Shown in pieces: positions 44,208 through 46,564 of a DNA stretch of 64,000 nt. The notes beneath the pieces were generated by a model. That model did no database searches, was not told where the DNA came from, and saw only the letters and a list, made by a program, of their open reading frames with translations. A program made the position numbers and the translations under genes. How positions within the stretch are numbered: the stretch's first letter is position 1; the number at the start of each line of letters is the position of its first letter. This DNA comes from Rhizobium gallicum bv. gallicum R602sp (GTDB taxonomy: Bacteria > Pseudomonadota > Alphaproteobacteria > Rhizobiales > Rhizobiaceae). Location: positions 1,369,501 to 1,433,500 of the forward strand of contig NZ_CP006877.1 in the NCBI RefSeq assembly GCF_000816845.1. The letters run 5' to 3'.

Positions 44208-44684
44208 ATGCGCTGCCCATTCTGCGGATCGGAAGACACCCAGGTCAAGGATTCACGTCCGGCGGAGGACAATACGTCCATCCGCCGCAGACGGATCTGT
44301 CCCGATTGCGGCGGCCGCTTCACGACCTTCGAGCGCGTGCAACTGCGCGAGCTGATGGTCGTCAAGAAGACCGGCCGCAAGGTGCCTTTCGACCGCGACA
44401 AGCTGGTGCGGTCCTTCGAGATCGCGCTGCGCAAGCGTCCGGTCGACCGTGACCGCATCGAAAGGGCTGTTTCCGGCATCGTCCGCCGCCTCGAAAGCTC
44501 CGGCGAAGTCGAAATCAGCTCCGAGGCCATCGGCCTTCAAGTGCTGGAAGCTCTCAAGAGTCTCGATGACGTTGGCTTTGTTCGGTATGCCTCGGTCTAT
44601 CGGGATTTCTCGCATGCCGAGGATTTCGAAAAGGTCATCTCCGAAATCAACGCCAAGATCAGCCGCGACAGTTTGGAGACCTGA
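44208..44684 (+). CDS. nrdR: Transcriptional repressor NrdR
   Basis: 158-residue repressor of ribonucleotide reductase genes. The N-terminal zinc ribbon is [17 protein letters not shown] then [17 protein letters not shown], and the ATP-cone domain that senses dATP/ATP begins [19 protein letters not shown]. It lies between glyA and ribD, the usual alphaproteobacterial position, and is cotranscribed with both by spacing. Confidence 0.97.
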
Positions 44685-44687
44685 GCC

Positions 44688-45944
44688 TTGAGCGCCGGAC
44701 CGCATGACAGGCGTTTCATGGCCGAGGCAATCCGTCTTGGCCTTCTGCATCTCGGCCAGACCTCCACAAATCCTTCCGTCGGCTGCGTCATCGTCAAGGA
44801 CGGCGAAATCGTCGGCCGCGGCACGACGGCGATCGGCGGGCGCCCGCATGCCGAGCCGCAGGCGCTCACCGAGGCAGGCGAACTGGCTCGCGGCGCCACC
44901 GCCTATGTGACGCTCGAACCCTGCTCTCATCACGGCAAGACGCCGCCCTGCGCCGACGCGCTGATTGCCTCCAGTGTCGCGCGCGTCGTCATCAGCGTGA
45001 CCGATCCTGATCCTCGTGTCTCCGGCCGCGGCATCGCGCTTCTGCGCGAAGCCGGCATCGAGGTTGATATCGGCGTGCTCGAAGAGGAGGGCAGGCGCTC
45101 GCTCGCCGGCTATCTCACGCGGCAAACGAAGAACCGGCCCTATGTGACTCTGAAGCTTGCGGTTTCCGCCGACGGCATGATCGGCCGCAAAGGCGAGGGA
45201 CAGATCGCCATCACCAGTCCACTCGCCCGCGCACAGGTCCAGGCGCTCCGCGCTGAAACCGACGCCATCCTCGTCGGCATCGGCACGGCGATCGCCGACG
45301 ACCCGGAACTCACGGTGCGGGTGCCGGGCCTGCAATCGCTGTCGCCGGTGCGTGTCGTGCTTGATCCGCGGCTTGATTTGCCGCTCGGCAGTAAACTTGT
45401 GCGTTCAGCACGAGAGGTGCCGACCATTGCCGTTGCAGGCGAGGCCGCCCCCTTTATCCTGCCGGACATCTCTCCCACGTGGGGCGAGATAGATGGGGTG
45501 AACGCTCGCCCGCATTCTTCCGCCGGGATCGACGCCACCACTGATGAGGTGCCGGTAGACGCGAGCTGCGGCAACCTGCCGATCCCTCCCCTGGTGGGGG
45601 AGATGCCCGGCAGGATAAAGGGGGGTGAGGCCCGCGCCGAAGCCCTGCGGGCTGCAGGCGTTGAAATCCTATACTGCCATCCTTACCATCCCGAAGTGCT
45701 GCTTCCGGCGCTCGCCTCGCGCGGCATATCCTCGCTCCTGGTCGAAGGCGGTGCGAAGACGGCACAGCTTTTCCTCGACGCCGGTCTCGTCGATCGAATC
45801 CAGCTTTACCAGGGCCAGATCATCATCGGCGAGGGCGGTATTGAATCGCCTTTGACGAAGTCCGATATGCCATCCGGTTTTGCCCATAGAGGCACATTCA
45901 TGTTCGGCGACGACCGGCTGGACGAATACGAAAGAGAATTTTGA
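44688..45944 (+). CDS. ribD: Riboflavin biosynthesis protein RibD with in-frame repeat insertion
   Basis: Bifunctional deaminase/reductase for the second and third riboflavin steps. 418 residues, about 60 more than usual. TTG start at 44688 with GGAG upstream, four bases after nrdR. Deaminase domain: zinc ligands H54 (HAE), C79 and C88 in PCSHHGKTPPC. Reductase domain: KLAVSADGMIG, VGIGTAIADDPELTVR, SLLVEGG. Residues 254-313 come from a palindromic intergenic repeat inserted between a strand (TIAVAGEA) and the next helix (RAEALRAAGVEIL). The frame is intact before and after, so the protein is probably made with an extra loop. Confidence 0.95.
   Translation: MSAGPHDRRFMAEAIRLGLLHLGQTSTNPSVGCVIVKDGEIVGRGTTAIGGRPHAEPQALTEAGELARGATAYVTLEPCSHHGKTPPCADALIASSVARVVISVTDPDPRVSGRGIALLREAGIEVDIGVLEEEGRRSLAGYLTRQTKNRPYVTLKLAVSADGMIGRKGEGQIAITSPLARAQVQALRAETDAILVGIGTAIADDPELTVRVPGLQSLSPVRVVLDPRLDLPLGSKLVRSAREVPTIAVAGEAAPFILPDISPTWGEIDGVNARPHSSAGIDATTDEVPVDASCGNLPIPPLVGEMPGRIKGGEARAEALRAAGVEILYCHPYHPEVLLPALASRGISSLLVEGGAKTAQLFLDAGLVDRIQLYQGQIIIGEGGIESPLTKSDMPSGFAHRGTFMFGDDRLDEYEREF
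45447..45626. repeat. RIME-like palindromic element inside ribD
   Basis: 180 bases. The left arm (45448-45478, CCCCCTTTATCCTGCCGG then ACATCTCTCCCAC) is the inverse complement of the right arm (45594-45624) at 29 of 31 positions. Inner arms are less similar. GAGGCC flanks both sides (45441-45446 and 45627-45632), as a short target duplication would. The arm type (CCTGCCGGACATCTCCCCCAC) is that of intergenic RIME-like repeats in Rhizobiaceae. The inserted length, 180 bases or 186 including one flank copy, is a multiple of three. Confidence 0.85.
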
Positions 45945-46564
45945 TGTTCACCGGAATTGTCACGGATATCGGCATGATTGAATCCGTTTCTGCCATGAAC
46001 GAGGGTGTGAAGCTCCGCGTCGTGAGCAATTACGACCCTAAGACCATCGATATGGGCGCGTCGATTTCCCATTCGGGCATCTGCCTGACGGTGACCGGCC
46101 TGCCGGACGAAGGCAACAACGGGCGTTGGTTCGAGGTGGAGGCTTGGGAAGAGGCTTTAAGGCTCACGACGCTTGCAAGCTGGAAGGAAGGCACCCGCGT
46201 CAATCTCGAGCGTCCTCTGAAGATCGGCGACGAACTCGGCGGCCACATCGTCTCAGGGCATGTCGACGGCAAGGCAGAAATCCTGTCGGTGACTACGGAA
46301 GGCGATGCGACCCGCTTCCGTCTGCGCGCCCCGGAGCATCTTGCGAAATTCGTGGCGCCCAAAGGCTCGATCGCGCTCGATGGTACGTCGCTGACGGTCA
46401 ACGCCATCGAAGGCACGGATTTCGATGTGCTTCTCATTCGCCATACTTTGGAAGTCACGACATGGGGCGAGCGAGAGGCCGGTGATTTCGTCAATTTCGA
46501 GGTTGATACGATGGCGCGCTATGCAGCTAGGCTGGCTGAATTCCCTGCCGCGAAAGCAGAATGA
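45944..46564 (+). CDS. ribE: Riboflavin synthase
   Basis: Dismutates two lumazines to riboflavin and pyrimidinedione. 206 residues in two lumazine-binding repeats: MFTGIVTDIG at the start, IDMGASISHSGICLTVTG in the first and GSIALDGTSLTVNAIEG in the second. The ATG at 45944 shares a base with the ribD stop (TGATG). The 3' end overlaps the opposing GNAT gene by 38 bases. Confidence 0.95.
   Translation: MFTGIVTDIGMIESVSAMNEGVKLRVVSNYDPKTIDMGASISHSGICLTVTGLPDEGNNGRWFEVEAWEEALRLTTLASWKEGTRVNLERPLKIGDELGGHIVSGHVDGKAEILSVTTEGDATRFRLRAPEHLAKFVAPKGSIALDGTSLTVNAIEGTDFDVLLIRHTLEVTTWGEREAGDFVNFEVDTMARYAARLAEFPAAKAE

Follow-up and report, generated by a model that had tools for sequence, protein, structure and literature searches.

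The window analysed here, a stretch of 64,000 nucleotides from Rhizobium gallicum bv. gallicum R602sp, carries ribD on its forward strand (44688–45944). This ORF is open over its full length and encodes a bifunctional deaminase/reductase of 418 amino acids with an in-frame insertion. By the ORF list and gene order, an ORF at the nrdR place (44208–44684, forward strand) lies directly upstream, and an ORF at the riboflavin synthase place (45941–46564, forward strand) follows downstream; in the annotation of the S. meliloti record CP090106.1, the gene order is serine hydroxymethyltransferase, nrdR, ribD and riboflavin synthase. That record, 3.7 Mb long and titled pSymB, has glyA-type, nrdR and ribD genes and is possibly a chromosome under a plasmid name. 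Pfam detects PF00383 and PF01872 in the RibD of the window, with PF01872 split into two stretches, and the single RibD match at E ≤ 1e-60 in its own genome is the window ribD itself. The closest named relative of this RibD is that of Rhizobium mongolense (L010, 93% RibD identity), and the host is neither Rickettsia nor Wolbachia.

Inside ribD, the inverted-repeat search, the fold and the structural model delimit a palindromic element of 177 bases (45448–45624), which codes for approximately residues 254–313. The left arm (45448–45490, forward strand) and the right arm (45582–45624, forward strand) are 43 nt each and 86% complementary, and they enclose a variable middle of 91 nt (45491–45581, forward strand), whose counterpart in relatives evolves almost freely by pN/pS. 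The 31-base arms given in the preliminary description are the outer part of these arms. The element has terminal inverted repeats, a trait of MITEs, and is flanked on the left (45441–45446) and on the right (45627–45632) by two forward copies of GAGGCC, 186 bases apart. The element strand folds at -112.9 kcal/mol, compared with a mean of -81.2 kcal/mol (sd 4.5) for 200 dinucleotide shuffles, none of which was as good as the real strand (z -7.0). An Rfam search gave no match above the gathering score of any family. The coordinates, arms, flanking GAGGCC copies and open ribD frame of the preliminary description are all borne out, and the roughly 60 extra residues that it noted in RibD are indeed the element read in frame (45448–45624).

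In the AlphaFold model of the window RibD (mean pLDDT 85.2), the sole run below 50 comprises residues 254–310, and the insert sits between a strand and a helix. The three best structural matches of the model are solved RibD chains, with TM scores by target length of 0.86–0.88; the solved RibD chains matched are about 350–370 residues long. Chains of PDB entries 8dq9, 8dqb and 8dqc resemble RibD in both sequence and fold; their label, 3-dehydroquinate dehydratase I, looks wrong. At the protein level, dN/dS is 0.29–1.24 in the insert and 0.05–0.20 elsewhere in RibD (17 pairs, which overlap and share sequences). When 17 genes are pooled, the RibD core has a pS of 0.428 and a pN of 0.101, and the middle of the element has a pS of 0.498 and a pN of 0.417; the arms have a pS of 0.057 and a pN of 0.060, in genes picked for recognisable arms, a choice that lowers arm pN and should not lower pS this far. 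The insert evolves nearly freely as protein, and the constraint on it is weak.

The preliminary description had proposed to align RibD from related strains and to search for further copies of the arms, and it would have been contradicted if all related RibD proteins carried the insert or if the arms occurred nowhere else in rhizobial genomes. Neither was found. Among 120 genomes of the genus, the RibD match spans the insert in 49 and does not in 71, and other copies of the arms are common, some of them in coding frames. The ribD gene was fetched for 80 genomes (G031–G110), one of which was cut by a contig end, leaving 79 orthologues with loops of 73–114 residues in 36, 34–56 residues in 13 and 30 residues or fewer in 30. 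In a tree of 88 ribD genes from which the loop had been removed, 38 of the 56 rows in one Rhizobium clade (support 98) carry the element, and the others are scattered losses and remnants. Occupancy, labelled by loop length and with L011 taken as a full-length insert, requires 14 changes in all on this tree. Near relatives often differ, such as G031 with the element and G098 without it (pair support 99), and further differing pairs are G084/G068 (support 99) and G095/G038 (support 91).

The tree by itself cannot separate gain from loss of the element. One old insertion in the Rhizobium clade with repeated in-frame deletion would fit it best, because similar middles are found in many occupied genes and element ends are found in several short loops; the ribD genes compared were taken from ORFs, so that an open frame in all of them follows from the choice of data. 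In the Agrobacterium rows (L032 and L040) and in L060, the insert joins the protein at other residues, which makes separate insertions likely there. Some ribD genes contain further palindromes nested within the element. A similar nested palindrome replaces the arm tip in ribD, cobN and other copies from different genomes (L014:2810, L189:1460, L201:1367, and L145:1362 on the minus strand).

The flanks give some indication of how copies may be lost. When some genes, such as L022 or L025, are placed beside occupied relatives, their junctions resemble a deletion running from a G-rich CAGAGG or GAGGGG of the left flank to the right end of the element, and from these few junctions, read by eye, we infer a deletion mechanism. 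When deletion junctions were sought automatically in 12 pairs, the split spans came out at 0–19 bases, often with poor identity. The loop-free G078, which stands next to the clade of the window on the tree, has GAGGCC and GAGGCT 16 bases apart, so the GAGGCC pair of the window may predate the insertion and need not be a target duplication.

A constant target duplication was sought in 65 copies, of which 47 had no direct repeat of 2–11 bases and 18 had an identical dinucleotide on both sides. GTAG lies within 8 bases of an end in just 4 of the 65 copies and CGTC in 3, so there is no constant tag. The search for a mobilising partner covered one transposase family (Y1_Tnp) and found none. The own genome has three Y1_Tnp matches, two of them over the cut-off, and neither of these two has an inverted repeat beside it with an arm spacing of 60 bases or less. 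Arm matches near the Y1_Tnp genes are of 12 bases or fewer, and the best of them (E 0.019) lies at the third, weak match.

The repeat is dispersed well beyond ribD. The window element as query gives 9 match rows in its own genome, and the better-preserved ribD copy of R. hidalgonense (L021) gives 41 own-genome rows at E ≤ 10, of which 20, falling at 10 places, have E ≤ 1e-3. The L021 query matches 18 of 31 genomes, comprising 18 of the 19 in the genus (own included) and none of the 12 in other families. The repeat was matched in 112 of the 120 genus genomes and, in a draw of 150 genomes across the order, in 7 (own included; 4 of 89 genera), and the E. coli genomes searched gave no match. Plasmid records matching the window element number 117, all from genera of the order as judged by record names. 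In the 60 plasmid records listed, some of them unannotated and their gene table incomplete, no gene was found under the match, and the S. meliloti plasmid records among those listed have only one or two places each.

A DNA-first sample, which was not random, comprised 100 stretches fetched of 101 sites among the best matches listed from 11 genomes. A codon-position G+C test placed 16 of the 100 sampled copies in a coding frame, namely six in RibD, four in CobN (two sites), two in FtsY and four doubtful ones, with the RibD and FtsY copies L141 and L205 just below the threshold, and other copies may have been missed. Most of the sampled copies lie outside clear coding frames. The four doubtful ones (L168, L174, L214 and L216) look like chance open frames and were left uncounted. 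Some copies outside clear coding frames (L136, L142 and L202) have an outer inverted repeat of the GTGCCGTG type beyond C/G runs; given this, the full element may exceed the core seen in ribD.

Another finding is that two further protein genes of the own genome, ftsY and a UvrD-type helicase gene, carry the repeat in frame. The ftsY copy lies in the N-terminal region (G000:C1:3922327-3922530; L007/L124) of a gene named by its likeness to FtsY proteins from the protein search, and one of its arms is partly in another frame. The copy in the UvrD-type helicase, identified by Pfam (G000:C1:2444940-2445056; L122/L311), adds 44 residues net, and its arms come in the opposite order. All 15 genomes searched gave a reading of the UvrD site, with the insert in 4, which all belong to the RibD clade of the window, and an empty site in 11, for example AQRPKGEPQNVCCVGDDDQ. 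All 11 empty orthologues are 44 residues shorter than the own copy and 38 residues shorter than that of G070, whose insert is six residues shorter.

In a protein search with the RibD loop, 216 of 233 candidates had E ≤ 1, and the 120 of these that were listed are mostly RibD, together with FtsY, precorrin-3B synthase, CobC, CobN, MutY, aminodeoxychorismate lyase, ABC transporter ATPases and a PF12974 protein. Among shorter proteins, 42 of 154 candidates are listed at E ≤ 10; many are of the aminodeoxychorismate lyase (PabC-like) type, and others are named or classed as uracil-DNA glycosylase, acetyltransferase, hydantoinase/oxoprolinase, glycyl-tRNA synthetase beta, terminase-like or lipoyl-binding, among further kinds; several of these are fragments or have the repeat at the N-terminus, and the contexts of 16 proteins were examined. 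The names of matched proteins are those given by the sources. The UvrD insert as protein query returned two proteins of 18 candidates.

The clear in-frame copies mostly read PPSVLPDISPTRGEIG..ISPLVGEMPGRAEGG (frame A), and the exceptions are single arms, namely the RibD right arm in L167 and the FtsY left arm in L204 and in the own genome. Most clear in-frame arms use frame A, a preference seen at only five insertion sites. The availability of open frames does not account for it: of 118 readings of copies outside the coding count, 61 are open in frame A, 59 in frame B and 78 in frame C.

A puzzle is that the arms are uniform at the DNA level while the middle drifts. Where identical residues can be written with several codons, the same codon is used in 0.88–0.89 of the arm cases versus 0.66 in the core, and the best core block of ten reaches an agreement of 0.85. 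The small hairpin of each arm undergoes paired changes: its variable pair is complementary in 76 readings out of 78 for ribD loci, 20 out of 21 for coding loci and 146 out of 150 for loci outside the coding count; these readings comprise both strands and include kin, and hence they are not independent. The same pairing appears as linked residues in proteins, where V goes with D (72) and A with G (52) in 124 of 126 proteins (2 exceptions), and P goes with A (116) and S with T (23) in 139 of 141 proteins (2 exceptions), counts that include many orthologues and hence are not independent. The resemblance of the arms to the reference is poorer in the clade of the window (G000, G085 and G070) than in most relatives. 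Across 37 genomes, this resemblance rises with the abundance of the repeat (Spearman 0.51, kinship uncorrected), abundance being gauged by a rough copy proxy, the number of first-look candidates, and some scores being lowered by nested inserts.

Two processes could each account for this uniformity: selection on a hairpin, and exchange among copies of the family. We put forward tentatively that the arms in RibD, CobN, FtsY and other proteins might be kept uniform by gene conversion or renewed insertion, with copies elsewhere in the genome as the source, so that segments of these enzymes evolve in concert. This possibility fits the low synonymous divergence of the arms, the linked residues, the common nested palindrome and the correlation with abundance. 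If it is true, changes in a DNA hairpin appear as linked amino acid changes in different proteins.

Dispersed copies, their reading in frame, occupied and empty orthologues, the modelled position of the loop and the weak protein constraint were observed directly. The stretch in the window is very probably one copy of a dispersed Rhizobiaceae palindromic repeat, which was inserted long ago and is tolerated as a disordered RibD loop; the analysis supports the preliminary description in that a dispersed palindromic repeat lies in frame in ribD and adds a loop between a strand and a helix. The proposed repeat would be modular: a variable middle flanked by two arms of roughly 50 bases, in each of which a small hairpin forms. 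Its spread may be due to a transposase acting in trans, and an old insertion would have brought it into the RibD reductase domain, at a surface loop that tolerates extra sequence. Because the entered frame is free of stops, translation of the element would give RibD a disordered loop with which it can cope, and the insertion is presumed to be close to neutral for RibD. Copies would then be lost by deletion, perhaps between short G-rich end repeats, and only in-frame products would survive. The loop-bearing enzymes appear to keep working. One observation counts against a mere passenger, namely that synonymous positions in the arms show far more conservation than would be expected of a neutral insert.

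Another explanation is that the hairpin in the messenger or the DNA, and not the peptide, is selected, for pausing, mRNA stability or as a protein binding site. The fold (z -7.0), the contrast between arm pS (0.057) and core pS (0.428), and the complementary variable pair in 76 of 78 ribD readings and 146 of 150 readings not counted as coding, which are not independent, all agree with it. We nevertheless consider it rather unlikely: the element has been lost from ribD repeatedly, and the arms of G000, G085 and G070 match the reference worse than those of most relatives. Since the same arms also occur outside genes and in unrelated genes, their conservation need not concern ribD. A smaller chance is given to the loop having been put to use in RibD, for stability, partner binding or control, and kept by selection. 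Such a use would suit an old insertion kept in many species, with well-conserved arm residues and dN/dS below 1 in 15 of 17 pairs (lowest 0.29); on the other hand, several genes in well-supported pairs lack all or part of the loop, 13 of 79 loops are intermediate, the pN of the middle (0.417) is close to its pS (0.498), the peptide is common to unrelated proteins, and pLDDT in the model is below 50.

An origin of the loop within RibD itself, with a chance likeness to the repeat or with the loop as its seed, is extremely improbable. Such an origin has in its favour how old the loop is in the Rhizobium clade; against it, 71 of 120 genus genomes lack an insert-spanning RibD match, solved RibD chains have about 350–370 residues, other copies match the arms at the DNA level on either strand, and in-frame copies occur in UvrD, FtsY and CobN, with the occupied and empty UvrD sites contradicting it directly. 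Removal of the stretch after transcription or translation, in the manner of an intron or intein, would account for an insertion in a conserved enzyme whose sequence resumes on both sides. We give it scarcely any credence, as Rfam returned no match over a gathering score, no intein domain is among the Pfam hits, and in relatives the reading frame stays open through both the length variants and the remnants, which is what translation of the loop demands.

The best-known protein-coding palindromes are those of the obligate intracellular Rickettsia and Wolbachia. Rhizobia are free-living and genetically tractable, and close relatives hold occupied, partly deleted and empty versions of one gene, which makes old questions testable, namely whether such a loop is useful or only tolerated, how it can be lost without breaking the frame, and by what means the repeats spread. 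For annotation, peptides of the PPSVLPDISPTRGEIG..ISPLVGEMPGRAEGG type should be taken as translated repeat and not as a domain. In a literature search, no title or abstract dealt with palindromes lying in frame in rhizobial genes, a weak negative, with subscription papers thinly covered.

The palindromic elements of Rickettsia (RPE) and Wolbachia are described as about 100–150 bases long, with many in frame in conserved genes and with sites common to orthologues and at exposed positions (PMC3767692, PMC2229807, PMC10969869). Set against these descriptions, the ribD element is likewise palindromic, with 177 bases able to form a long stem-loop, and the rhizobial repeat likewise lies in frame inside the conserved genes ribD, ftsY and that of the UvrD-type helicase. 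Unlike the RPE so described, most sampled rhizobial copies are outside clear coding frames, and the ribD copy has a record of in-frame loss. The hosts of the RPE and Wolbachia elements are obligate intracellular, and the rhizobial repeat is likened to them by features and not by sequence. In this sense, as a likeness of features, the suggestion of a rhizobial counterpart of RPE stands for the in-frame palindromes in ribD, ftsY and the UvrD-type helicase.

MITEs of Coxiella are likewise described as palindromes read in frame (PMC5896051). Intragenic REPs with GTAG/CGTC tags are described as small palindromes, single or paired, within ORFs including those of UvrD/REP helicases, and they occur in several bacteria that are not intracellular (PMC3733652). 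The rhizobial repeat differs from REPs of this description in having no constant tag and no close inverted repeat beside the two Y1 transposase matches over the cut-off. RIME are repeats dispersed between rhizobial genes and described as intergenic (PMC2573895); the window copy, compared with them by description only, lies within ribD. In Sinorhizobium/Ensifer ribD, another dispersed palindromic repeat occupies the same RibD loop in frame (L033:2754-2830; L042; L334:1501-1569), and in S. meliloti CP090106.1 it lies under the annotated ribD. It differs from the window element in its sequence and its shorter insert, and it is found at 769 places in 176 plasmid records. The rhizobial repeat is a further member of the known class of in-frame palindromes.
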